Assembly (NCBI GenBank): GCA_018663815.1
Contig: JABJPQ010000320.1
Coordinates: 1 to 12,204, forward strand
Source of the DNA: Halobacteriovoraceae bacterium
GTDB lineage: Bacteria; Bdellovibrionota; Bacteriovoracia; Bacteriovoracales; Bacteriovoracaceae
Direction of reading: 5' to 3'
DNA: 12,204 nucleotides
Shown: positions 1 to 12,204 of the stretch, piece by piece
Numbering within the stretch: position 1 is the stretch's first letter
Layout of the letters: every line of letters starts with the position of its first letter
Translations under genes and position numbers: made by a program
Notes under the pieces: model-generated
Database searches by the model: none
What the model saw: only the letters and a program-made list of their open reading frames with translations
What the model was told of the DNA's origin: nothing

Positions 1-1802
1 CAGAAATTCTCTCGACAATGAATCTTATCACAGATGACCCTATACCTGGCTATCCTGACTGGAGTATTCAGGAGATGAGAATTTATCAACAAGATGATCA
101 GACAAACTTGTGTCCGATATATTTTTCAGTATCGCGCTACGCAAGCCTTAATAATACCTCTATGGGAGCAGCGACTAAAAATTTCTGGATCATACTTAAT
201 TGTACTGTAGTGGGTACATTAGTGACATACTGTTCAAGTATTGAGAAGTATAACAATGGTCTTTGGGACTATGTTACAGATGGCGTTCCAACTGATGGCA
301 TTCACTTCTCTGGAGGTGGTTCGGTTGGAATTGGAGTTAATCCTCCAATTCGTCAACTACACTCAGCTTCAGCAACAGTTTCTAATGAATTTATAATGGA
401 AGTAGAGGATGGGCTGGCAGATTGGAAAAAATGGAATTTTGTCGTTGCTGGTGGTGCAGCTAATGCACAAAATATGTACCTAAGAATACTTAATGACGTA
501 GGAGCTGCATCATCAATGGATGCGATGACTTGGCTCGCTAACGGTAATGTCGGTGTTGGTTCAATGGCACCAGCTGCTAAACTTGACGTTGTTGGCGATA
601 TCACAGCGAGCACAACGATAACAGCAGGTACAGGGCTGACAGTCACAGCGGGAGATGCAGCTATTACAGATGGTAATTTGACTGTTACCGGAGCTGGTAA
701 CGGCACTATAACAGCAGCCTCTGATATCACAACAACTGCTGGTGCCCTTCTTTTTACCGACGTCAATAATAGAATTGCTAAGCCAGCAGCAAACGAATTG
801 GCTTTCTATACAAACAATAGCGAAAAAATGTCTATAAACTCAACTGGTATTGTTGATATACAAAATGGAGTATTAGTACTTAACAAAGGAAACGGAAGCG
901 TAGGAACAAACTCCGATATTTACTTTAACGGCCAAGGATTAATTGCCTCTCAAAGCAGTCTTTATATTAATATTGACAGCGATAATAACCAAGCAAATGC
1001 GAGTCTTTTTATTAAAACAAACGCGGAAACAAGCGGCGGGCTAACTCTTCTCAAAGTTGATGAAGACGGAACTGTCACAACCACAAACAAAGTCTTGTTA
1101 GATACAGCTAGTATTGGCGCATTTGATGCTGTAGCCCCAGGGACTAAAGTCGCAAACACACACGCTGTAAACAAACAGTGGGTGTGGGATTTTTTAACAG
1201 GCATCCAAGCAGGTGCGATGACCGACGCTCAAAGGGAAGCTATTGTTGCACATATTTTGGCCGGAACAACTGCTGATAATTATGCAGAGCTTGAAACTGC
1301 TATTCACAGTAGTCTTAACAGTACTTCTGCAGTTTGTGGAGATGATACCTGGACGAAATCAGTCGTACTTACAGGCGGCGTTGTTACCAATACATGTGGA
1401 GGATTTTCAGCAAATGTGACAATGCCAGGAGCCTTGATAGTGACAACAAACCTAACCGTCTCCTCCGACAAACGCCTAAAAAAGAACATCAAAAAACTAG
1501 ATAGCTCCCTGGCAAAAATCATCCGCCTAGAAGGAGTTGAATACTTTTGGAAAGACCGAAAGAAATCAAAAAGAAAACAAATCGGGCTTATCGCGCAAGA
1601 GTTATTAAAGGTATTTCCCGAGCTAGTTGAGAAAAGCCCTGGCGATAAATATTACTCTGTTAATTATATTGGACTTATCGCGCCCCTAATTGAGGCGACT
1701 AAAGAGCAACAAGAACAAATCGAAGAATTAAAGCAAGAAAACGAGCAAATGCGACGGTTTTTATGCGATAAATTTAATAACGAAGCCCAGTTTTGCAACT
1801 AG
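1..1802 (+). CDS. Phage-fibre-like surface protein with C-terminal peptidase S74 chaperone domain (5' partial)
   Basis: The reading frame is open to the left edge (codons from position 3) and the first ATG at 18 has no ribosome binding site, so the true start probably lies outside the window. Residues are numbered from that ATG. Residues 98-106 and about 175-195 carry the Gly-rich NGNVGVG...KLDVVGDI type of motif typical of trimeric beta-rich fibre shafts. A Thr/Ala/Gly-rich stretch without hydrophobic segments follows. Cys440 and Cys460 could form a disulfide. At 482-491 is the S74 signature SSDKRLKKNI. By analogy with phage endosialidase, Ser483 and Lys488 would form the self-cleavage dyad and the C-terminal domain would be released after trimer folding. 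Later S74 landmarks are IGLIAQEL, FPELV and YIGLIAPLIEA, then a short coiled coil (EEQ/KQEN type). Similar proteins in Bdellovibrio are surface fibres for prey recognition; that role here is inference. It is not in an operon with the next gene. Confidence 0.85.
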   Translation, partial: EILSTMNLITDDPIPGYPDWSIQEMRIYQQDDQTNLCPIYFSVSRYASLNNTSMGAATKNFWIILNCTVVGTLVTYCSSIEKYNNGLWDYVTDGVPTDGIHFSGGGSVGIGVNPPIRQLHSASATVSNEFIMEVEDGLADWKKWNFVVAGGAANAQNMYLRILNDVGAASSMDAMTWLANGNVGVGSMAPAAKLDVVGDITASTTITAGTGLTVTAGDAAITDGNLTVTGAGNGTITAASDITTTAGALLFTDVNNRIAKPAANELAFYTNNSEKMSINSTGIVDIQNGVLVLNKGNGSVGTNSDIYFNGQGLIASQSSLYINIDSDNNQANASLFIKTNAETSGGLTLLKVDEDGTVTTTNKVLLDTASIGAFDAVAPGTKVANTHAVNKQWVWDFLTGIQAGAMTDAQREAIVAHILAGTTADNYAELETAIHSSLNSTSAVCGDDTWTKSVVLTGGVVTNTCGGFSANVTMPGALIVTTNLTVSSDKRLKKNIKKLDSSLAKIIRLEGVEYFWKDRKKSKRKQIGLIAQELLKVFPELVEKSPGDKYYSVNYIGLIAPLIEATKEQQEQIEELKQENEQMRRFLCDKFNNEAQFCN

Positions 1803-1807
1803 CTACC

Positions 1808-1838
1808 TGTAAGTATTAGGATCCTCTTAATATTTACA
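1808..1838 (+). terminator. 14-bp hairpin after the S74 gene
   Basis: An inverted repeat starts 6 nt past the stop codon. The arms are 1808-1821 and 1825-1838, with a TCC loop. All 14 positions pair in RNA, two of them as G-U. The stem is AT-rich and is followed only by a weak T-rich stretch (TAGCTTT), so it is either a modest intrinsic terminator or an mRNA 3'-end protector for the fibre gene. It fills much of the 73-bp gap before the response regulator. Confidence 0.55.
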
Positions 1839-1875
1839 TAGCTTTAAAGTAGAAATTCACCTATTATTATAAAGT

Positions 1876-2247
1876 ATGCAGAATAAAAAAAAATATAAGC
1901 TACTCATTGTCGATGATGAGGTTGATCTATGTAAGTTTGTTCAGTTGTGCTTAGATGAAGATCTCTTTCAAGTTGAGTACACTCACTCAGGCCAGGATGC
2001 TTTCAAAATATTATCTCACCAAAATTATGATTTAGTCCTCTCTGATATAAAAATGAAAAGAGGTGACGGGATTGAACTTTTAACAAATATCCGAACTCTC
2101 CCATCCCCTCCTTGCGTCGTCATCATGACTGCATATTCAGAAGTCAGCAAAGAGGAAATTCTAAAAACCGGAGCTAAGGCCATATTGGTCAAACCATTTG
2201 ATCTTGATGAGCTCGAAGAAGCATTAGAGAAATGTTTTACTAACTAA
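1876..2247 (+). CDS. Stand-alone receiver-domain response regulator (CheY/NtrC-type receiver)
   Basis: This is a 123-residue cytoplasmic protein made of one phosphoacceptor receiver domain with no output domain. The acidic pocket is Asp13-Asp14, the phosphorylation site is Asp57 (in LVLSDIKM), the switch Thr is Thr85 (IMTAYS) and the conserved Lys is Lys106 (VKPF). The residue after DxxM is Lys61 rather than the usual Pro. No histidine kinase lies next to it, so its partner is unknown. The receiver resembles those of NtrC-family regulators (SDIKM, DGIELL) at least as much as CheY. There is no good Shine-Dalgarno. A TATTAT box ends only 5-8 nt before the ATG, which could mean a very short or leaderless transcript, but no convincing -35 box was found. 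Its 3' end overlaps the convergent feoB by 8 bp. Confidence 0.9.
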   Translation: MQNKKKYKLLIVDDEVDLCKFVQLCLDEDLFQVEYTHSGQDAFKILSHQNYDLVLSDIKMKRGDGIELLTNIRTLPSPPCVVIMTAYSEVSKEEILKTGAKAILVKPFDLDELEEALEKCFTN

Positions 2248-4099
2248 ACAGCAAATAAGTAATCCAAGCAAAGAAATAGGCTAAAAAAAATGTATAGGCC
2301 AAATAGATCAGCGGGTATTTATACCCGTCAGTTTCTTTTTTCATCACGGCTAAAGTCGAGATACATTGAGGAGAAAAAACAAACCAAATCAATAACGACA
2401 ATAGTGTCGCAAGAGAGTAAGTATCAGATAGCTGATGGGATAGGTTTCCAATATAATGATCATCCTCTGGATCAGCGCCCTCACTTACAAAAACTGTTCC
2501 AAGTGAGACAACTAATAATTCTCGAGCACCAAAACTAGGAATAAGTGCAGTCGTTAATCTCCAATCAAAACCAAGGGGTTTAAATATCGGTTCGAACGTT
2601 TTTCCAATCGATGCCGCGTAAGAATAATGAATGGCCGGCTTATCAGCTCCCATAGGTTTTTTTGGGAAAGTAACCAAACCCCATATTAAAATCGACAATA
2701 CTAAAATAATCGTGCCCGCTTTTTTTATAAATATCCAACCTTTTTGCACGGAACCTTTAACAACGTTTTTTAAAGATGGCATTCTATAGGGTGGTAGCTC
2801 CATTAGCAGATAACTTGGACTGGCCGGTGCGATCATTTTTTTGGCCATAAAAGCCACAACAAATGCGGAAATAATTCCAAATAAATATAATCCCATCAAT
2901 ACCAATCCAGGTAGGCTCAAAAATCCGAAAACTCTTTCATTCGGTACAATAACTGCAATAAGTAAGGTGTACACAGGAAGTCTGGCTGAACAAGCCGTTA
3001 AGGGGGCAATTAAAATGGTGATCATGCGCTGTCGATAGTTTTGAATTATTCTAGCAGACATTATGCCTGGAATGGCACAAGCATGGGAAGAAAGCAAAGG
3101 AACAACTGCTCTTCCCGGAAGTCCTAATTTTCTCATTAAGTAATCAAGTGAAAAAGCCACTCGCCCTAGGTAACCAAAGTCTTCTAAAAAATAAATAATA
3201 AAAAATAAAAAGACAATATGAGGAATAAAAACCAAAATACCACCAACGCCAGCAATGACTCCATCCACAAGCAAGGACTTTAAAAGACCATCAGCTAAAT
3301 GTTGTGAGGTAAATAAACCTAACCAAGAAAAGAAACCTTCAATAAGTCCCATAAATGGATCGGCCCAAGCGAATAGTAATTGAAAAATAAAAGTGAGTAC
3401 AAATAGTAAGATAACAGGACCAAAAATAGGATGTAAAAATAGATTATCTAATTTTGACGTCAAGCTATCGGGACGAATCTTATCCACAATAATATCTTTT
3501 AATAAAGTATCCATGGCCTGCAATTTGTCTTTCACATAATTAGGTTCCTTAATCTTTTTTTGAAAATCAGGAGGTATTGAAAAAGGAGTAGCTCGCATTT
3601 GTTCATAGCTTGTTATCAGTTGTGCTAAATCTGTAACTCCACTTTTATTAGTTGCTATAGTTGGAATTATTTTTCTATTTCCTAATTTTTCACTCAAAAG
3701 TTTAAGATCAATTGTTTGGCCTCTTTGATTAGCAATATCCATCATATTGAGCGCAACAACATAATTAACTCCCAGCTCATTAAGTTGAGAAGCGAGGTAG
3801 AGAGACTTTTTTAAACTGGTCGCATCTATTACCAAGATAAAAAAAGAGATTTTATCTGCTGTATTTTTTTGAAAAATATAATCTTTGGTCACTTTCTCAT
3901 CCAAAGTTGAGACATCAAGCGTATAGATTCCGGGCAAATCAATAATTTCATGCTGTGAATGGCCATTAAGAGTGCCTGATCTTTTTTCCACCGTGACGCC
4001 GGGAAAGTTAGCCACTCTTTGGCGATTGTTAGTCAATTGATTAAAAAGAGCTGATTTCCCAGAGTTAGGTAAACCTATAAGTCCTATTGATTTCATCAT
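2240..4099 (-). CDS. feoB: Ferrous iron transporter FeoB
   Basis: This inner-membrane Fe(II) transporter has an N-terminal G-protein domain and 619 residues. The G motifs are all visible: G1 GLPNSGKS (9-16), switch-I Thr36 in the VANFPGVTVE region, G3 DLPG (54-57), G4 NMMD (118-121) and a G5-like ATNKSG (149-154). About 37 residues separate G5 from the conserved stretch leading into the membrane part, so the helical GDI region looks shorter than in the ~770-residue E. coli protein. Membrane helices begin near residue 222. The first Gate region includes the conserved-Cys motif SSHACAIPGIM, and the second Gate the SFGARELLVVSLGT segment. It starts with ATGATG; the first ATG overlaps the feoA stop as ATGA, so the pair is translationally coupled. 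No feoC is present. It converges on the response regulator with an 8-bp overlap. Confidence 0.97.
   Translation of the reverse strand: MMKSIGLIGLPNSGKSALFNQLTNNRQRVANFPGVTVEKRSGTLNGHSQHEIIDLPGIYTLDVSTLDEKVTKDYIFQKNTADKISFFILVIDATSLKKSLYLASQLNELGVNYVVALNMMDIANQRGQTIDLKLLSEKLGNRKIIPTIATNKSGVTDLAQLITSYEQMRATPFSIPPDFQKKIKEPNYVKDKLQAMDTLLKDIIVDKIRPDSLTSKLDNLFLHPIFGPVILLFVLTFIFQLLFAWADPFMGLIEGFFSWLGLFTSQHLADGLLKSLLVDGVIAGVGGILVFIPHIVFLFFIIYFLEDFGYLGRVAFSLDYLMRKLGLPGRAVVPLLSSHACAIPGIMSARIIQNYRQRMITILIAPLTACSARLPVYTLLIAVIVPNERVFGFLSLPGLVLMGLYLFGIISAFVVAFMAKKMIAPASPSYLLMELPPYRMPSLKNVVKGSVQKGWIFIKKAGTIILVLSILIWGLVTFPKKPMGADKPAIHYSYAASIGKTFEPIFKPLGFDWRLTTALIPSFGARELLVVSLGTVFVSEGADPEDDHYIGNLSHQLSDTYSLATLLSLLIWFVFSPQCISTLAVMKKETDGYKYPLIYLAYTFFLAYFFAWITYLLFS
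2312..2341 (+). terminator. Intrinsic terminator of the response regulator, inside feoB
   Basis: A GC-rich hairpin CGGGTAT/ATACCCG (arms 2312-2318 and 2321-2327) is followed after 4 nt by TTTCTTTTTT. It sits 65 nt downstream of the response regulator stop and within the antisense of the last ~100 nt of feoB. The orientation of the T-run fits termination on the plus strand only. Confidence 0.65.
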
Positions 4100-4329
4100 T
4101 GTTTTAACTCAATCGTAATATTTTTGGCCATGGAAGTGGTGATTGCCACTTGAACACCACTAATTTCAAAAAGTAGTGGGTCTTTAAATATGGGAGCCTT
4201 TCGAATCAGTTTAATCATTTCTCCTGGAACAATACCTAATTGATAAAGCCGGGCCAATACTTTTTCATCGGGATAATTGACCCCAACAACCTGATAATCT
4301 TGTTTAATTTGCGCATCGTCTAATAACAT
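4096..4329 (-). CDS. feoA: FeoA, small SH3-like ferrous iron transport protein
   Basis: This 77-residue cytoplasmic protein has the FeoA fold pattern. An LYQLGIVPGEMIKLIRKAP segment matches the family's LGLxPGxxVxVxRxAP motif, followed by DPLLFEISGVQVAI and a last strand. FeoA is thought to bind FeoB and modulate it. An AGG three to five bases into the leader (4335-4337, spacing 5) supports the ATG at 4329. The stop TGA overlaps the feoB start. The length is normal for the family. A dyad/hairpin immediately precedes the ribosome binding site and is the only candidate control element seen. No clear Fur box was recognised. Confidence 0.95.
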   Translation of the reverse strand: MLLDDAQIKQDYQVVGVNYPDEKVLARLYQLGIVPGEMIKLIRKAPIFKDPLLFEISGVQVAITTSMAKNITIELKQ

Positions 4330-4337
4330 AGCAACCT

Positions 4338-4373
4338 GTTTGGTATGTGAAACTTAGATAGCATGTACCAAAC
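4338..4373 (-). promoter_or_regulatory. Inverted repeat in the feoA leader
   Basis: The arms are GTTTGGTA (4338-4345) and TACCAAAC (4366-4373), perfect over 8 bp. Two mismatches and two further pairs (TG/CA) follow, leaving a 12-nt centre. On the minus strand the structure ends exactly at the AGG of the feoA ribosome binding site, and a TATCTA box, a possible -10, lies in its centre. It could be an operator over the promoter or an mRNA hairpin that gates feoA translation. There is no T-run after it, so it is a poor terminator. Confidence 0.45.
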
Positions 4374-4432
4374 ACAAAAAACTAAGTCTATGATTTTAAT
4401 TAGGAATTACAAAAAACAAGTTAAAATAACAA

Positions 4433-6745
4433 CTAATAGTGAGATGATTTATATTCAGAGTCCATATGACTACTCAAAAAGACACTTTGTTTAGCCTCTT
4501 TAAAAATTGCTTGCAAATCTCCAACGAGACTCTGCTCTACGGACTCTATCTCGCTTTGGAAAATATTTAGTTTTTTTCTGAGCATTTTTACTTCCGAATC
4601 ACTTAGCTTTAATTGTTGTTGCTCATAATCTGAGCTTATATCAGCAAGTTGACTTTGATTGGAACTAAGAATGAGTTGAGATTTACTCATGAGAAGCTCA
4701 AGTCCTGAAATATTCTTATCCAGGTTTTCAACATGGCCATCAAAAACTTCAAAGGAGCTAAGAGTTTTATCCACGGCCTGCTTAACTTTATCAACACTGG
4801 CCTGGCCCTCAACTCTATTAACCTGGCTTTTTAACTGTTTAAGTTCATGGCCTAGTTTTAATTTAAACTCATACATTATCGTTTTATTATCTCGTAATTC
4901 ATCTTTATATTGGTTTAGTTTTGGTAAGGATTTAATTACATCCTGTGAAATTTCTTTTAGTTTATTTATCTTACCAACACCATTTTTAAGAGCATTATTA
5001 TTAGCATGAATCAGCTCCAGGTCACTAGAGTTAGCCTTTTCTAGTTTATGGCTTAGATTCATAAGTGTTATAATATTTTTCTTAAATGATTTAAGTAGTT
5101 CAATATTATTGCGACTACTTACAATTTTTTCACCTAGATTTCCCCTAACATTTTCATCTCGCTGCTGATGAAAGCTCAGTTTATTATGCAAAGATTCAAT
5201 TTCACTTATTAAACGTTGATTTTCATTTGTCACTTTTGTGTGTAGCTCTAAAAACTCATTGTAAACGTCACTAATATCAGCAATATTAAAATCACTTTCA
5301 AGGTCTTCACTTGCTTGGAATTGATCTTCTTGCATCATGGTCAAACTTCTCCTTATAGGTGAAATAAGACTTTGAGCTTGATCTTGTATCGTTTCTTCTA
5401 GGTTTGTTAAATCATAAAAGAAAAGCATAATCCTGGTCTGACCTTGATAATCAACAGGAGAGACAAACATTTCATAAGGACGAGCAGGACTGGTATCATT
5501 AGGTTTCACATGAACTTGATAAATTCCAGCAATTTGATGCTTTAAAGCTTCTAGGATAGGATCATTATTGCCAAGATTTGTAAGTTTGCTTAGGTAATCC
5601 CAGCTCATGTAATCTTTATTTATTTCATCCTCTGAGATCTTCCAATCCTCACAAAATTGTTTATTGGCCCATTGAACTTTTAGGTTCTTATCTAGTAGGA
5701 CAGAAGAAAGAGGAAGAGCATCTTGAAAAACACTTCCAAAGCTCATTCTCTTATTGAGATAATCAGACATTGTATGAGTATGCCGTATAAATTCAGGAGA
5801 AAATCCTTCTCCTGCAAGCATTTCTCCTGCCAGAAGGTTTTTATCAATAAAAATTTTCATCTTTTTTTCAAAGCTCATTTGAGCGGAGCGAAAATAAAAG
5901 CGATTAAGTAAAAAGCTCACCAAGAAAAGAATGAGTGATAAAAAAGCAATCGCTCCAAACCCCATAACATAATATTTTCCAATTTGTTCTATTTGAATTT
6001 TTTGTAAAGTAATTTCAGGGGCAACAGTACTCATCCATTTTTGCATGAGCTTATTTGCTTCGGCATAGATTTGATAAAAGAATTTTCTCTCATCAACATA
6101 TTTTTTGAGCATGTTAATTTCAATTTTTAAATTTGAAAGTCGGCTTATGACTTCGGCTTTATCTTTGCGAGGAAGCACAGAGTTGCCAATAATTTTTTCC
6201 ATTGTTGAAAACTCACGACTGAGGCTGCTTACCAAAGAGGTTAGTTTTTTCTTATTAAGATGTCCGCTTGTTTGAGATAAAACTCTATCACTCATGCGAG
6301 AGAGAGTCCTCCAGTTGTTTTTTTGTACATAATGATAAAAAGTGGCCATTTTACCATTAAAAACTTTAATCACTTTTTCAACTTTTGAAAAGGAGATTAA
6401 GTTTGCTGAAGATGTTTTTAACTTTTGAAGATCTGCTTGTAAAAGGACAAATTCTTGAACCTCGACTTGATCATTTATTTTTTTAAAATCTTTTTCAATA
6501 TCTTTTATTTTTATTATAGCTTGTTTAGGATTTTCATTAGTAATCAATTGTTTTACATCCTTGAAAACATTCTTTGATTCGTATGTTTCAATGATAAAAC
6601 TAGCTTTATGCAGATCCTGCCCTCGACTCCCATTAACAAACCCTAACTTCCAAAAATAAAGAACGATTCCTAAGGTGCATATAAATATAATAAGAAATGA
6701 AGCCTGATAATACTTCACAATATTTTTTAAGAATTTTTCAATCAT
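4433..6745 (-). CDS. Two-TM membrane protein with periplasmic helical domain, PAS domain and long coiled coil; function unknown
   Basis: The ATG at 6745 is preferred because AGAGG precedes it with 5-nt spacing. The frame can extend to a GTG at 6790 that lacks a ribosome binding site. The resulting protein has 770 residues. TM1 is at about 16-36 and TM2 at about 258-283. The ~220-residue region between them is predicted periplasmic and nearly all helical, like four-helix-bundle sensor domains. Residues about 345-450 look like a PAS domain (a LLDKNLKVQWANKQF core, ending in FFYDLTNLEE). The last ~320 residues are Lys/Glu/Gln/Ser-rich heptads, a long coiled coil. No HAMP, histidine kinase H-box or ATPase, GGDEF, or chemoreceptor hairpin-tip signature was seen. 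The arrangement resembles a chemoreceptor or sensor kinase whose output has been replaced. It lies between fliA and feoA on the same strand, so a motility link is suggested only by position. Confidence 0.8.
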   Translation of the reverse strand: MIEKFLKNIVKYYQASFLIIFICTLGIVLYFWKLGFVNGSRGQDLHKASFIIETYESKNVFKDVKQLITNENPKQAIIKIKDIEKDFKKINDQVEVQEFVLLQADLQKLKTSSANLISFSKVEKVIKVFNGKMATFYHYVQKNNWRTLSRMSDRVLSQTSGHLNKKKLTSLVSSLSREFSTMEKIIGNSVLPRKDKAEVISRLSNLKIEINMLKKYVDERKFFYQIYAEANKLMQKWMSTVAPEITLQKIQIEQIGKYYVMGFGAIAFLSLILFLVSFLLNRFYFRSAQMSFEKKMKIFIDKNLLAGEMLAGEGFSPEFIRHTHTMSDYLNKRMSFGSVFQDALPLSSVLLDKNLKVQWANKQFCEDWKISEDEINKDYMSWDYLSKLTNLGNNDPILEALKHQIAGIYQVHVKPNDTSPARPYEMFVSPVDYQGQTRIMLFFYDLTNLEETIQDQAQSLISPIRRSLTMMQEDQFQASEDLESDFNIADISDVYNEFLELHTKVTNENQRLISEIESLHNKLSFHQQRDENVRGNLGEKIVSSRNNIELLKSFKKNIITLMNLSHKLEKANSSDLELIHANNNALKNGVGKINKLKEISQDVIKSLPKLNQYKDELRDNKTIMYEFKLKLGHELKQLKSQVNRVEGQASVDKVKQAVDKTLSSFEVFDGHVENLDKNISGLELLMSKSQLILSSNQSQLADISSDYEQQQLKLSDSEVKMLRKKLNIFQSEIESVEQSLVGDLQAIFKEAKQSVFLSSHMDSEYKSSHY

Positions 6746-6750
6746 CCTAA

Positions 6751-6755
6751 CCTCT
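6751..6755 (-). promoter_or_regulatory. Ribosome binding site deciding the PAS-protein start
   Basis: AGAGG on the minus strand stands 5 nt before the ATG at 6745. The upstream GTG at 6790 has only an AT-rich leader. This favours the shorter 770-residue protein. Confidence 0.7.
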
Positions 6756-6864
6756 AAGTTAACACTTCCATGTGCACTTTTTTTAAGCACTTAATACGAC
6801 TATAGTATCTAATATTTTCAGTATTTTTGTAAAGTTAAGAATGAAAAAATATTTTTTGAGATAA

Positions 6865-6888
6865 GCCAGAAGCCTTGATACTTCTGGC
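6865..6888 (-). terminator. Hairpin after fliA
   Basis: A perfect 8-bp stem GCCAGAAG/CTTCTGGC with an 8-nt loop begins 11 nt past the fliA stop. On the minus strand it is followed by TTATCTC and then by a 14-bp A6TAT6 palindrome (6844-6857), so the T-run comes late. On the plus strand it is followed by CCCTTTTATTTATT, a better tract, but no plus-strand gene feeds it. It probably marks the end of the flh-fliA transcript. The rest of the 154-bp gap to the PAS gene is AT-rich, and I could not assign a clear promoter in it. Confidence 0.55.
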
Positions 6889-6899
6889 CCTTTTATTTA

Positions 6900-7685
6900 T
6901 TAAATAGCTATATCTTCATATGATTCAAAATCATTTTTAAGTTTTGCTTTTAACTTTAATATTGCTTGTGTATGTAATTGAGAAACGCGAGACTCTGTCA
7001 CATCCAAAACTTGACCGATCTCCTTTAGGTTTAAATCTTCAAAATAGTAAAGAGAAAGGACAAGCCTTTGTTTTTCAGGTAAAGATTTTATGCCCTCTTT
7101 TATAATCTTTTGGGCCCTTTTATAGTTTACTGCTGAGAATGGATTTGATGATCTTCTATGTTCAAGAAGTCCCATCATTAATTTCTTATCTCCACGACTA
7201 AACGTTGTTGAATCATCAATATTAAGTAATGAGACAGACTTGGACTTATTTATCATTTCATGAAACTCTTCGAGATTACACTCGAGGGAAGCACACATTT
7301 CATCATCTGTAGCAGGTCTTCCAAGGTCTCGTTCTAACTTAGCGTATGTTCTTTCAAGTTGCTTAGATTTTTCTCTGACTGATCTAGGAACCCAATCCTG
7401 AGAGCGTAGCTCATCTAAGATTGAACCTCTAATTCTGAACTCAGCATAGGTTTTAAATTTATTATCACGTGAAGAATCAAATTTTTCGATGGCATCCATT
7501 AAGCCAATTACTCCACACGAGATTAAATCATCAAGCTCAATATTAGCCGGTAATCTCGATGCTATTTTTTGAGCAATAAAACGAACCAAAGGAGCGTATT
7601 CAACAACAATTTTGTCCTTTACACCTGGTTCCATCGTACATCTGTAATCTTTTAAATTTTTTAGTTTAGCCGTTAGTGATGACAT
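6900..7685 (-). CDS. fliA: Flagellar sigma factor FliA (sigma-28)
   Basis: This 261-residue group 3 sigma factor directs RNA polymerase to late flagellar and chemotaxis promoters. Region 2 spans about 26-102: DDLISCGVIGLMDAIEKFD, then the FKTYAEFRIRGSILDELR and DWVPRSVR stretches that are hallmarks of FliA. Region 3 is about 108-155. Region 4 is about 190-250, with its helix-turn-helix in LKEIGQVLDVTESRVSQLH. Length and motifs are typical. The ATG at 7685 has AAGGAG 7 nt upstream. It lies 23 bp after flhG and ends the flhA-flhF-flhG-fliA series, the order known from polarly flagellated bacteria. The anti-sigma factor FlgM is not in the window. Confidence 0.97.
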   Translation of the reverse strand: MSSLTAKLKNLKDYRCTMEPGVKDKIVVEYAPLVRFIAQKIASRLPANIELDDLISCGVIGLMDAIEKFDSSRDNKFKTYAEFRIRGSILDELRSQDWVPRSVREKSKQLERTYAKLERDLGRPATDDEMCASLECNLEEFHEMINKSKSVSLLNIDDSTTFSRGDKKLMMGLLEHRRSSNPFSAVNYKRAQKIIKEGIKSLPEKQRLVLSLYYFEDLNLKEIGQVLDVTESRVSQLHTQAILKLKAKLKNDFESYEDIAI

Positions 7686-7708
7686 TAAGCTTCTCCTTAA
7701 GCGTGTGA

Positions 7709-8599
7709 TTAATGAACTTCCTGTTCAATTCTTCTTTTTGGGTGAAAAGCTTGACTGCCCTTTTCGGTCCCATTTGCGCTTAATTCATCGGTTAGTTTAT
7801 GTACGACTTTAAGAAAGTTTTCATGGTGGCTATTTTTTCCCCTCGCTAAAAAATATTGATCAAAATTATTTGCCTGAGTATCTAGCTTTTTAATCCCACC
7901 AAGGATTTTTGTGCGACAACCAAGAAAGTTCTCTACTGTTTCGCTCAAGGTTTGAATAACTTTTACATATTGAGGCTTGGTATTAACCATATTCACAAGT
8001 AAGTGGTTTTGATTAACACCAAACTTCTTGTTAAGAACCTTAATTAGTGAATATGAATCCGTTATGGATGAGCGATCTGGAGTAACAATAAGTATACGAT
8101 GATCACAATAGGCATTTAGCACCAACGACTCCCTAGAGAGGCCTGCGGGACAATCAAGTAAGATGTAATCATACTCTTTTTCATGTGCCGTCATGATATC
8201 AATAATTATTTCTTCCAACCTAAAACTAGCATCAAAAAGATCAATTGATCCGTTACAGGCAGAAAGAAGATGAAAACTTCCTTCTTGGTATAAACACTCT
8301 TGAAATGATTTCTCAGCCGAAACCAAGTCATAAAAAGTATTGCTAAGTGGCAGTCCTAATTTTATTGCTGTATTTGATAAATTATAATCACAGTCAATTA
8401 AAAGAACCTTATTTCCTTGAGCTGCAAGCTCTTTAGCCATTTTCAATGAGACTGATGTTTTTCCAACCCCACCTTTACCGCCGGTAATGGAAATCGTTTG
8501 CGTTGTTTTTTCAGTAGGTTTTTTAAGGGACGCTATCGAATTAAGGTCTCTTACTTGATTTGAGTTAAAAGAGCGTAACCACTCACTTGTTTTTTCCAT
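7709..8599 (-). CDS. flhG: FlhG/FleN, MinD-like ATPase controlling flagellar number
   Basis: This 296-residue cytoplasmic ATPase belongs to the ParA/MinD family. The deviant P-loop GGKGGVGKTS is at 40-49, with signature Lys42 and Lys47. LLIDCDYNLSN (67-77) is the A' motif and LLDCPAGLS (147-155) the Walker B/switch II region. FlhG normally limits flagellar number by acting on FlhF and on flagellar regulators. Its N-terminal FlhF-activating motif, DQAxxLR elsewhere, is seen only as a relaxed NQVRDLN at 14-20; the Gln is kept but the Asp and Arg are not. The C-terminal ~20 residues are polar and charged. An AGGA about 6-8 nt before the ATG supports the start. It follows flhF by 63 bp and precedes fliA by 23 bp. 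Confidence 0.93.
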   Translation of the reverse strand: MEKTSEWLRSFNSNQVRDLNSIASLKKPTEKTTQTISITGGKGGVGKTSVSLKMAKELAAQGNKVLLIDCDYNLSNTAIKLGLPLSNTFYDLVSAEKSFQECLYQEGSFHLLSACNGSIDLFDASFRLEEIIIDIMTAHEKEYDYILLDCPAGLSRESLVLNAYCDHRILIVTPDRSSITDSYSLIKVLNKKFGVNQNHLLVNMVNTKPQYVKVIQTLSETVENFLGCRTKILGGIKKLDTQANNFDQYFLARGKNSHHENFLKVVHKLTDELSANGTEKGSQAFHPKRRIEQEVH

Positions 8600-8622
8600 C
8601 GACTTCCTGTCCTTCTCTCAGC

Positions 8623-8641
8623 ACTCAACATCCTGTCGAGT
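8623..8641 (-). other. Small hairpin in the flhF-flhG gap
   Basis: On the minus strand ACTCGACA/TGTTGAGT (arms 8634-8641 and 8623-8630) pair over 8 bp with one G-U and a 3-nt loop. It has no T-run, so it is not a terminator by itself. It could be an RNA processing or stability element between the two coding regions. The 7-mer GACAGGA occurs both in this hairpin and in the flhG ribosome binding site. Confidence 0.3.
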
Positions 8642-8662
8642 ATTTTCAACATTCAAAACTAA

Positions 8663-10126
8663 TTATAAACGAAACATTCCTGCAAGTAATCTCTCTACAG
8701 AAGCAGCTTCAATATCATCAGGAACTATCGCCCCTGTTCCAAAAAATTTCAATGGCAATTCTGAATGTTCTGCATGAACATTTAGTAAAGATCCAAAGCT
8801 TAAACACTGATCCATATATGAAACAATCACTCCATCTGAAAATGGCTTATACTTAGAAAGAATTTTTCTATTGTACAGCTCTGAATGAATTCCTGAAATA
8901 ATTGTTAATATTTCCATGTGATCAAATGACCTCTTAAGCGTCTCAATAAATTTCTTTGACTCATTTGTTTCTTTAAAATTTAGTTTTAAATCTAAAATAA
9001 GAGATTGATTATCGTGAATGGCCTTGCGGGCTTCACTCATTAAGTGAGCTAATGTATTTACGGTCGTGATATTTAATTTAAATATTCTCGCTGTAAAATC
9101 TGCATCATGCGTATCCAGTTCATTTTCTCTAAACCTAATAATACGCACATTTTCTTGTAAGGCCGCTAGCTTCATGGCCATACTCGTTTGACCGCATGAA
9201 TTCTCTGAAATGAGTGTCGTTACAACTGGCTGGGTAGTAGAGTCAACTCTTGAAAAAAGAGGTAATTCAACTCGAATCAGCTCACTTATTTCTCGTAAAG
9301 CAAAATCATTAGTCAGTTCATGGCTTTCAAGCTCGTCTTTTAACAACTCAAAACTCGCTTTTTTTAGTATTTTTTGAGTTATGCTCTCGCTTAAATCAAG
9401 TGACCTCAAACTCATTCGTAAAGATCTAATCCCTAAAGGTATTTTTTGCTCATACTCTACTCGGGTCTCTGATATTTTTTCAGTTAACTCAAATAATTTT
9501 TTCTCTAATAAATCAATTTGATGCTTTTGAGTTTTTATTTCTTGTCTTAATTCGGAGGATATCTCTTCATTATACTCTTGATTTGCTTGTATCGTGTGCT
9601 GGGTATCAAGTCTTTGCACTTCTCGTTCAGTACGATCATGTGACAGCTCATGACTTTCTAACTCATGCGCTTCATCTGCTATAAACCCTTGAAAATCACT
9701 CTCTGACTTTGGAGCTTCTTCTTCCATCGTCAAAAAATCATCCAAAGAATTTTTAATTTTATGAGAAGCCGTTGAGACTGATTGAACAACTTTATTTAAA
9801 CCTATAGAGCCATAACTCGTACCATGGCTCTCTTTAAGTTTTGATCGATTTTGATCGTAGTCATCAATCATATTATTAATACGACTTGCAGGGGCTTGAT
9901 AAAATTGTTCTTTTTGCCCATCTGTAAGAACATGGTCAACTCTTGCTTTCTTTTCATAGCTTTGTTCTGAAATTGCTGCTGTTATTTCAATTCGTCGTTT
10001 TTTAAATGCACCCTTAAGGCCCTTGTTTGTTACTGTCTTTAAAATAATCGCATCTGGACCCAGCTCAGCTTTAACTGATTTTAAAGTCTCATCAAGCGAA
10101 TCACCTTCAAATTTCTTAACATACAT
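8663..10126 (-). CDS. flhF: FlhF, SRP-type flagellar placement protein with degenerate GTPase motifs
   Basis: FlhF marks the pole for flagellar assembly. This copy has 487 residues. Residues 1-50 hold the usual start (FEGDSLDETL, ELGPDAIILKT, FKKRRIEITAA). A charged linker with a coiled coil spans about 60-225, and the helical N domain about 226-290. The G domain follows but its nucleotide motifs are lost. The P-loop GxTGxGKTT aligns with residues 307-315 SENSCGQTS (Gln313 for Lys), DTAG with DLKL (379-382), TKxD with SYMD (436-439), and the TGQxVPDD motif with TGAIVPDD (464-471). Flanking family residues (KLAA after the P-loop, FGSLLNV, VPDDIE) remain, so alignment is clear and no frameshift is visible. 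It probably cannot bind or hydrolyse GTP normally. The ATG at 10126 is 3 nt after the flhA stop, with GAGGG inside the flhA end. Confidence 0.93.
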   Translation of the reverse strand: MYVKKFEGDSLDETLKSVKAELGPDAIILKTVTNKGLKGAFKKRRIEITAAISEQSYEKKARVDHVLTDGQKEQFYQAPASRINNMIDDYDQNRSKLKESHGTSYGSIGLNKVVQSVSTASHKIKNSLDDFLTMEEEAPKSESDFQGFIADEAHELESHELSHDRTEREVQRLDTQHTIQANQEYNEEISSELRQEIKTQKHQIDLLEKKLFELTEKISETRVEYEQKIPLGIRSLRMSLRSLDLSESITQKILKKASFELLKDELESHELTNDFALREISELIRVELPLFSRVDSTTQPVVTTLISENSCGQTSMAMKLAALQENVRIIRFRENELDTHDADFTARIFKLNITTVNTLAHLMSEARKAIHDNQSLILDLKLNFKETNESKKFIETLKRSFDHMEILTIISGIHSELYNRKILSKYKPFSDGVIVSYMDQCLSFGSLLNVHAEHSELPLKFFGTGAIVPDDIEAASVERLLAGMFRL

Positions 10127-10129
10127 TTT

Positions 10130-12204
10130 CTATACCCTCACAGTCCCTAATGATCTGATATTAACTTCAGGACTTAATTCGTTATGACTAACGACAATTA
10201 AGTTTGGAATAAATTTTTCAGTCAATTTTTTAAAATGCCTTCTCACCACTGGTGAACAAAGGACAATCATTTTTTCACCCATATTAGTGGCTTCTTCAAT
10301 TCTTTCATTTAAGCTAGCTAAGATAGTTTGAGTCAATTTAGGATCTAATGACAACTCTTGTCCTTTCTCAGTTTGAATTAAGTTTTGAGCTAAAGATTCT
10401 TCAATTCCTCTGTCTAACGTAAACAATGGAATATCACCTTGATCACTTTTAACTTTTTCAGTTATTGTTCTATACAAAGACTCCCTGGCCATTTCAGTCA
10501 AGGTGTCTGCATCCTTAATTATTGTACCATGCTCAGCAAGGGATTCAAGAATTGTTCTTAAATCTCTAACAGGAACACTTTCCCTAAGTAAATTTTGCAG
10601 AACTTTTAACACCGTGCCAAGGGATAAAGTATCAGGGACCAAATCATCAACGATTTTAGGATAGTCCTGTTTAAAATTATCAAGTACTCCAACTAACTCT
10701 TGTCTTCCAAACAACTCATGCAGGTTGTTTTTAAGAAGTTCTGTTATATGTGTAGCAATGACAGTTGATAGATCGACTACAGTATAGCCGTTATATTGAG
10801 CATCATCTTTAAGTTCCTCATTAATCCATACAGCATCAAGACCAAAAACAGGCTCCTTGGCTTCGATCCCATCAATCGTCTCAATGACAGTTCCCGGGTC
10901 CATAGCAAGAAAATGGTCTGGCATTAAGTCTGCCGAAGCAACTTCAATACCTTTTATTTTTAAAGAATATCCACCTGGTTTAAGCTCTAGGTTATCTCTT
11001 ATCCTAACCGAAGGTATAATAACTCCCCAGTCCGTTACAAACTGCTTTCTGATATGACTAATTCTTTCTAGCAAATCACCATTTTGATCTGAATCAACAA
11101 TATTTACTAAACCATAACCAACTTCTAACTCTACCATCTCAAGACTCAGAAGTTCCTCAAGATTATCTGTCGTTGCTTTTTTCTCTTCAACTGCATTCTT
11201 TTTCTCTAAAGCGATTTTATCTTGTGCTTTTCGATCTATCCTAAAAGCAACAAAACCAAGCATAAACGAAACTGCCGCAAAGGGAAAAACAGGGAACCCA
11301 GGTATCAAGGCAAAAAGAAAAAGGATAACAGAAGTAATATAAATAGCTTTAGGATTATAACTAAATTGTTCACCTAATTGAGTACTTAGACCTGTATCAT
11401 TAGTATTTCTGGTAGCAATAATACCTGCGGCAGTAGAGATAACAATAGCTGGAATTTGAGCAATCAATCCATCACCAACAGTTAAGAGAGTAAAAATCTT
11501 TGTTGCATCACCAAAGTCCATTCCGTTTTGAGCAACTCCAACAATGATTCCCCCAATGATATTAATGGCCGTAATTAAAATACCCGCAATGGCATCTCCC
11601 CGAACAAATTTACTCGCACCATCCATAGACCCATAAAAATCTGCTTCCTGTGAAACTTCTGCTCGCCTTGTTTTTGCTTGTGTTTCATTTATTAAGCCTG
11701 CATTTAAATCAGCATCAATGGCCATTTGCTTTCCTGGCATTGCGTCCAAGGTAAATCTTGCAGCGACCTCAGCAACTCGTCCTGCACCTTTTGTAATAAC
11801 GATAAAATTGATAATAACAAAAATGATAAACATAATAATACCGACGGCGAAATTCCCCGCAACAATATAATCTCCAAAGGCCCTAATAATTTCTCCGGCC
11901 GCACTTGCATTACCTCCGCCTGAGCCACCTCCTCTTAAGAGTATGTTTTTTGTGGAAGCAACGTTTAATGACAAACGAAAAAGTGTAATGACGAGTAAAA
12001 CTGCTGGAAAAGTTGAGAAGTCCAAAGGCTTTTTAATATAAACACTTAAAAGTAAAATAACTATTGAGGAGGCGAGACTTAAAGCAATAAATAAATCCAT
12101 GGCCCACGGAGCGATTGGAACAATCATAACCCCAAGGATAACCACCAGGCCAACGGCAACGGCGATATCTGCATTTTTACTTACATCAAAAAATTTACTA
12201 AACA
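10130..12204 (-). CDS. flhA: Flagellar export gate protein FlhA (5' partial)
   Basis: FlhA is the inner-membrane core of the flagellar type III export apparatus; its cytoplasmic ring binds chaperone-substrate complexes. The frame stays open to the right edge. The residues before the GTG at 12145 (SKNADIAVAVGL) match the usual FlhA N-terminus, so that GTG is internal and about 690 residues are visible, with only a short start missing. Counting from the edge, membrane helices run through about residue 320. The FHIPEP signature (RVAEVAARFTLDAMPGKQMA) is near 142-161, and EADFYGSMDGASKFVRGDAIAG near 186-207. A charged linker precedes the soluble domain (GYGLVNIVD, then RIRDNLELKPGGY, then SPVVRRHFKKL). 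A Gly/Ser-rich loop at 11909-11935 is slightly longer than in E. coli FlhA. It ends 3 nt before flhF, so the two are likely co-translated. Confidence 0.98.
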   Translation of the reverse strand, partial: FSKFFDVSKNADIAVAVGLVVILGVMIVPIAPWAMDLFIALSLASSIVILLLSVYIKKPLDFSTFPAVLLVITLFRLSLNVASTKNILLRGGGSGGGNASAAGEIIRAFGDYIVAGNFAVGIIMFIIFVIINFIVITKGAGRVAEVAARFTLDAMPGKQMAIDADLNAGLINETQAKTRRAEVSQEADFYGSMDGASKFVRGDAIAGILITAINIIGGIIVGVAQNGMDFGDATKIFTLLTVGDGLIAQIPAIVISTAAGIIATRNTNDTGLSTQLGEQFSYNPKAIYITSVILFLFALIPGFPVFPFAAVSFMLGFVAFRIDRKAQDKIALEKKNAVEEKKATTDNLEELLSLEMVELEVGYGLVNIVDSDQNGDLLERISHIRKQFVTDWGVIIPSVRIRDNLELKPGGYSLKIKGIEVASADLMPDHFLAMDPGTVIETIDGIEAKEPVFGLDAVWINEELKDDAQYNGYTVVDLSTVIATHITELLKNNLHELFGRQELVGVLDNFKQDYPKIVDDLVPDTLSLGTVLKVLQNLLRESVPVRDLRTILESLAEHGTIIKDADTLTEMARESLYRTITEKVKSDQGDIPLFTLDRGIEESLAQNLIQTEKGQELSLDPKLTQTILASLNERIEEATNMGEKMIVLCSPVVRRHFKKLTEKFIPNLIVVSHNELSPEVNIRSLGTVRV

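Follow-up and report, generated by a model that had tools for sequence, protein, structure and literature searches.

FlhF is regarded as a conserved GTP switch for the place and number of flagella (PMC12826062). Here we describe an FlhF whose GTPase motifs are altered, encoded in a window of 12,204 nucleotides, by which we mean the whole stretch of DNA analysed (contig JABJPQ010000320.1, positions 1 to 12,204, from a Halobacteriovoraceae bacterium). Judged from its nearest named relatives, which are Halobacteriovoraceae and Bacteriovoracaceae metagenome-assembled genomes (MAGs), Bacteriovorax, Halobacteriovorax marinus and some MAGs with vaguer titles, the window belongs to class Bacteriovoracia of the Bdellovibrionota, within which both of these families fall. 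The protein retains a GTPase fold of the signal recognition particle (SRP) type and has lost the motifs, on a gene under purifying selection, which is the pattern of a pseudo-GTPase.

The flhF locus

The flhA-flhF-flhG-fliA cluster is intact in the window, with every gene on the minus strand (Table 1), as a preliminary description had stated when it reported an intact full-length flhF frame inside an intact flagellar cluster. The same neighbours recur in 80 named loci, some with partial flanks, where flhF lies beside FlhA in 79, FlhG in 77 and FliA in 72; these loci come from a scan of the best 80 of 103 relatives in named genomes. The place between flhA and flhG/fliA, the N-terminal domain and the NG domain are all those of an FlhF orthologue, and the score against the NCBIfam FlhF model TIGR03499 is low (59.7 bits; cut-off 174.15). 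The alignment to that model begins at residue 1 (E 4.3e-16), NF011310, a second model for FlhF, covers residues 1-39 (E 1.2e-5), and the solved FlhF chain 9en1_A gives a weak profile match in support of the B domain (E 0.0012). Most of the best 60 of 126 sequences matched by the FlhF profile in the PDB are influenza HA2 chains, on a helical segment, and were set aside as coiled-coil chance matches.

The G domain had been placed at 8663-9241, which corresponds to residues 296-487. Reading the DNA at 9182-9208 bears out the proposed Gln313 in place of the P-loop Lys and Ser at the P-loop Gly positions 307 and 310, with Gly312 retained, and the other substitutions then proposed, DTAG to DLKL, TKxD to SYMD and TGQ to TGA, are seen at D379, S436-D439 and T464-A466 (GTGA). 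The window protein has no G1 with Lys, no G3 DxxG, no canonical G4 and no G2 I-box of an active SRP-type GTPase. In the AF2 (AlphaFold2) structure prediction, made for the monomer, the P-loop shape is kept (strand 302-307, loop, helix from 313); model confidence is lower in the G5 and closing loop (predicted local distance difference test, 68-83).

Table 1 Features of the flhF locus in the window
Feature	Position	Strand	Evidence
flhF, 487 aa, apparent pseudo-GTPase form	8663..10126	minus	open reading frame without internal stop
B domain / FliG-interaction domain (residues 1-60)	9947..10126	minus	strongly conserved, mean ingroup entropy 0.76 bits
N domain (residues 226-298)	9233..9451	minus	within the 2px3 alignment of the model (230-486)
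G domain (residues 299-487)	8666..9232	minus	Pfam SRP54 (PF00448) 24.4 bits; fold match to FlhF and FtsY
Degenerate P-loop (G1), S307-E-N-S-C-G-Q-T-S315	9182..9208	minus	DNA read: tca gag aat tca tgc ggt caa acg agt
Codon CAA, Gln313 at the P-loop Lys position	9188..9190	minus	DNA read and alignments
G3 position DLKL (D379 kept, Gly lost)	8981..8992	minus	DxxG in 2/108 ingroup vs 26/31 outgroup
G4 position SYMD (S436-D439) with Q440, C441	8804..8821	minus	Lys gone; D439 retained, C441 newly conserved
G5 and closing loop, GTGAIVPDDIEAASVER	8690..8740	minus	mean ingroup entropy 0.98 bits, lowest of four loop groups
flhG, MinD/FleN-type ATPase, partner gene	7709..8599	minus	profile matches and AF2 model
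Deviant Walker A of FlhG, intact (GKGGVGKT)	8456..8479	minus	GKGGVGK invariant, T48 nearly so, n=45
N-terminal Trp motif of FlhG (MEKTSEWLRSFN), replacing DQAxxLR	8564..8599	minus	counts among distinct FlhGs (see text)
flhA, upstream neighbour of flhF	10130..12145	minus	TIGR01398 864.9 bits
fliA (sigma-28), downstream neighbour	6900..7685	minus	TIGR02479 270.6 bits

Conservation of the altered pocket

FlhF was present in 43 of 59 genomes searched. Of 129 class genomes, all assigned to one family, 119 have it. Both Gln313 and Ser307 occur in all 113 aligned ingroup rows, against Lys and Gly in 11/11 outgroup rows each, and a larger alignment has Gln at 313 in 177 of 178 ingroup rows, the remaining one (L227) being gapped by start trimming. 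Because both row sets contain some genomes twice, we counted distinct class sequences having the P-loop column, and Gln was found in 108/108. In a separate search with the window protein, which listed the best 120 of 838 relatives, it was found in all 119 besides the window protein itself, organisms that may overlap with those of the 108. Chance or sequencing error as the source of Gln313 is therefore excluded.

An intact G1 (GxxxxGK[ST]) is present in 0/108 distinct ingroup sequences and in 31/31 outgroup rows, and the relatives with an intact P-loop that the preliminary description named as counter-evidence do not occur among these class sequences. The 31 rows were picked, mostly as the best-scoring, among the 199 non-class genomes with a match (318 - 119) and are thus a sample only. 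A looser I-box (G2) pattern is likewise confined to the outgroup (0/108 vs 23/31), although the strict form DTxR does not discriminate, as it misses all 31 outgroup rows as well. At G4, the pattern [NTS][KQ]xD is found in 2/108 vs 20/31, with the Asp kept, and the following Glu in 2/108 vs 27/31, whereas a loose G5 pattern, Gx(G/S)(K/E/Q), is not discriminating (46/108 vs 20/31). Two of the three P-loop Gly are lost in nearly all ingroup rows. The divergent ingroup members L226 and L230 keep the first of them, yet already have Gln, and the nearest match outside the family (L206) has canonical G1, G3 and G4. Three outgroup FlhFs of about 370 aa (L042, L043 and L044, family f3) have an intact P-loop with SxSS replacing the G5 TGQ, and represent another divergent type. 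One assembly (G001) holds two Q-type flhF genes, at C1:215374-216846 (L006) and C20:46013-47473 (L033), possibly from two organisms because its contamination is given as 9.

The loss of all four motifs, as first described, holds for the substitutions, all of which are present, but the motifs are not wholly erased. In the 113 ingroup rows, G312 is conserved in 111, S/T314 in 107, D379 and D439 in 112 each, T464 in 110 and G465 in 111, and a new residue, C441, in 109. These remnants, the invariant and polar Gln313, which is no random replacement, and the predicted P-loop shape would also suit a remodelled binder, a nucleotide-stabilised FlhF in which Gln313 stands in for the Lys and a guanine nucleotide, be it GDP, GTP or an alarmone, is bound differently, perhaps locked without hydrolysis. 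We regard this as rather unlikely, given that the P-loop Lys is gone in all and two Gly in nearly all rows, that the I-box-like loop, the G3 Gly, the G4 Lys and the Glu after G4 are lost, and that, of the five residues touching the phosphates and base of GDP in Shewanella putrefaciens FlhF (Lys254, Thr255, Thr256, Asp388 and Glu389; PMC10910532), two are missing.

No second, canonical FlhF was found by a PF00448 search of the window's own genome, which is 80.7% complete, nor among the 129 class genomes, where no frame passes the TIGR03499 cut-off that 2 of 14 control genomes pass; the preliminary description had pointed to such a gene as a possible refutation. Of the two PF00448 matches in the own genome, one passes the NCBIfam cut-off for FtsY and the other that for Ffh; the best class frame for TIGR03499 (87 bits, L131) is also an FtsY.

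Origin and selection

In a tree of NG domains, one branch gives a 100/100 separation of ingroup from outgroup and is present in 100% of 200 bootstrap trees. The tree combines the full set of 31 outgroup rows with 47 distinct ingroup rows, of which 35 were drawn at random and 12 chosen for their depth or interest; as it is rooted at the midpoint, the direction from Lys to Gln rests on Lys being canonical. The separating branch is long, at 2.03 changes per column on one side and 0.76 on the other. The change from Lys to Gln thus appears to have arisen once, on the stem of class Bacteriovoracia.

The flhF gene of the class is under strong purifying selection. The ratio of non-synonymous to synonymous substitution rates (dN/dS) is about 0.046 in the G domain, 0.043 in residues 1-95 and 0.11 in the linker, for 34 close pairs of which 28 are distinct (6/34 repeat another pair), and is approximate because dS is saturated in many pairs. 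The former G1, G3, G4 and G5/closing loops (36 positions) have a mean entropy of 1.14 bits vs 1.77 for random draws from the G domain, with none of 10,000 random draws and none of 188 circular shifts as low, and position 313 is fully fixed in ingroup and outgroup by different residues. The pocket is therefore conserved in a new form. Q-type FlhF is, moreover, kept or lost together with flagellar FlhA: nine of the ten class genomes without it show no FlhA, and one (G064) has an FlhA match.

The long separating branch, a few very divergent rows (L226, L034, L032) and a stop inside one frame could be read as signs of a functionless relic that drifts in decay. This seems highly improbable and is already contradicted by a G-domain dN/dS of about 0.05, the retention of FlhF in 119/129 genomes, its absence in company with FlhA and the invariance of the new residues. 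The earlier judgement of a selected form, not decay, accordingly agrees with conservation of the motifs as lost across the class, dN/dS and entropy.

The class could also have dropped a cycle that was optional from the start, with a tether that never needed GTP and an otherwise ordinary function. FlhF hydrolysis is dispensable in Pseudomonas aeruginosa and Vibrio alginolyticus and contact with HubP is GTP-independent (PMC12713375, PMC11236974), and variation in G3-G5 already exists among the phylum's outgroup FlhFs. However, GTP must reportedly be bound in those two species, even if it need not be hydrolysed, GK[ST] is kept in all 31 outgroup rows, and the pocket is fixed in a new form instead of relaxed, all of which makes this account improbable.

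The partner FlhG

The AF2 model of FlhG matches FleN-AMPPNP (5j1j, E 1.5e-19) and FlhG (4rz3, E 1.1e-17). Trp followed by Leu, Arg or Met is found at the N-terminus of 106/107 distinct ingroup vs 1/19 outgroup FlhGs, in a segment predicted with low confidence as a helix. These 107 and 19 sequences give the unbiased count, with one outgroup FlhG with DQAxxLR (L217) skipped by the Walker pattern; the list behind the 45-sequence alignment A3 required the Trp motif, a requirement that excluded no named locus. The FlhG of L226 was masked. DQAxxLR, a helix that supplies FlhF with a co-catalytic Gln (PMC12826062), is present in 0/107 ingroup vs 5/19 outgroup FlhGs, and a C-terminal motif resembling a membrane-targeting sequence, by our own pattern, in 0/92 vs 8/12 complete sequences.

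The rows without flhG beside flhF include L034 (G004), L035 (G035) and L228 (G106), and elsewhere in G004, G035, G104 and G106 flhG gives only weak matches (best E about 1e-10 to 1e-11). Eroded G4-region residues are seen in L032, which has no Trp, and in the flhG-less L034 and L035/L227/L228; we do not claim that the FlhF pocket erodes where the Trp motif is lost, as L230, with Trp, is eroded too and the rows are divergent. The C-terminal EQEV of FlhG was considered as encoding the ribosome-binding site of fliA, a reading dropped, given a separate aaggag downstream in the window.

Neighbouring genes

Directly after fliA lies a gene for a 785-aa protein (4433-6790, minus strand) with two weak PAS matches below cut-off and, read by eye, apparent membrane segments. 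It is found in 65/80 named loci (partial flanks). Across the phylum, 50/191 genomes have it, every one of them a member of the window's own family; it also occurs in G029, which shows neither FlhF nor FlhA. The protein is a candidate class-specific polar or sensory partner. At 18-1802 on the plus strand, the window encodes a protein that carries, towards its C-terminus, a Peptidase_S74 domain (chaperone of endosialidase), a tail-spike-like module. The own genome has three FliG_C matches over cut-off (C495, C561 and C185; L247-L249), and more than one FliG-like frame may exist.

Discussion

The FlhF of class Bacteriovoracia is probably an orthologue turned pseudo-GTPase that acts as a tether without a GTP cycle, any cycling having moved to FlhG. 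We infer from the sequences that its cycle of GTP binding and hydrolysis is absent and the pocket empty; the main competing reading is that of a nucleotide bound in remodelled or locked form, because G312, S/T314, D379, D439 and TG464-465 remain. In S. putrefaciens, FlhF contacts FliG through its FliG-interaction domain and, regardless of nucleotide, HubP through its NG domain. It keeps FliG from FliM/N, a block that FlhG, which stimulates the FlhF GTPase, is proposed to lift (PMC11236974, PMC12826062). The tether parts of this system are kept in Bacteriovoracia, the GTP step probably not. The N-terminal domain would hold FliG and the NG domain the polar partner, making FlhF a constitutive tether from FliG to the pole, while the former nucleotide pocket may now serve, without nucleotide, as the surface that meets a second FlhF or a different partner. 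Release, driven elsewhere by GTP hydrolysis, would have passed to FlhG or another factor; FlhG retains its ATPase Walker A and, in place of the GTPase-activating DQAxxLR helix, has a nearly invariant Trp motif.

The preliminary description overstated the case in calling for a different pole-selection switch, because binding of NG-FlhF to HubP is nucleotide-independent in S. putrefaciens (PMC11236974) and pole selection thus need not require a new one. By our analysis, the step that must change without GTP would be GTP-driven release or an assembly checkpoint. A single polar flagellum is still seen in Halobacteriovorax isolates (PMC12724312).

Several observations weigh against the tether reading. 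The six near-invariant remnants are nucleotide-contacting positions, which weakens a pure scaffold, given that a scaffold would not obviously need them to persist. DQAxxLR is missing in 14/19 outgroup FlhGs, though 31/31 outgroup FlhFs keep GK[ST], and also in Pseudomonas FleN (PMC12713375), so its loss alone says little. In two lineages, G004 (L034) and genus g33, flhG is absent between flhF and fliA and the Q-type flhF stays, so FlhG is not the release factor in every lineage. The FlhF frame of G141, one of the 119 class genomes, has an internal stop, and several of the genomes in which both FlhF and FlhA are missing are themselves incomplete (56-99%). For the polar landmark FimV/HubP, TIGR03505 had no match in 39 genomes, a null that shows nothing because no control genome matched either.

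A more specific version of the tether reading is tentative: a nucleotide-free FlhF scaffold would place the single polar flagellum, its pocket rebuilt once into a fixed protein-protein socket that docks the nearly invariant FlhG Trp motif, and the FlhG ATPase alone would release FliG. Such a socket may comprise S307, Q313, K319, D379, D439, C441 and PDD469-471. If true, a two-NTPase switch has collapsed into a one-NTPase switch in Bacteriovoracia. The class-wide Gln at the P-loop Lys position offers a natural mutant, tested by evolution, for the debated need of FlhF for GTP in pole placement, FliG capture and release.

Comparison with known systems

In titles and abstract openings of the open-licence literature searched, we found no report of an FlhF without the P-loop Lys or of an SRP-type pseudo-GTPase, and no paper in that literature pairing FlhF with Bacteriovorax, FlhF with Bdellovibrionota or pseudoGTPase with SRP. 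Canonical FlhF (2px0/2px3, and 8r9r from S. putrefaciens) differs from the window FlhF, which shares 17% identity with 2px3, in that the latter is without the P-loop Lys and GxxxxGK[ST] and has altered G2, G3 and G4. The FlhG/FleN/YlxH ATPases (5j1j, 4rz3) have the same fold and Walker A as the window FlhG, but Bacteriovoracia FlhGs carry the Trp motif instead of DQAxxLR and lack the C-terminal motif. p190RhoGAP is a eukaryotic protein of Rho signalling, and its pseudo-GTPase domains are not SRP-type GTPases. It is alike in having a GTPase-like domain that has been termed a pseudoGTPase (PMC5593906). In the septin pseudo-GTPases, the nucleotide lies at an assembly interface, binding or hydrolysis has been lost and the interface rebuilt (PMC10731463). 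A pseudo-GTPase at a formerly nucleotide-dependent interface is hence already known from septins; what would be new here is its occurrence in FlhF, which would also make Bacteriovoracia FlhF an SRP-type pseudo-GTPase. Septins are eukaryotic filament proteins with several independent losses (PMC10731463), whereas the FlhF case appears to be one change, in a bacterial class and in an SRP-type GTPase.
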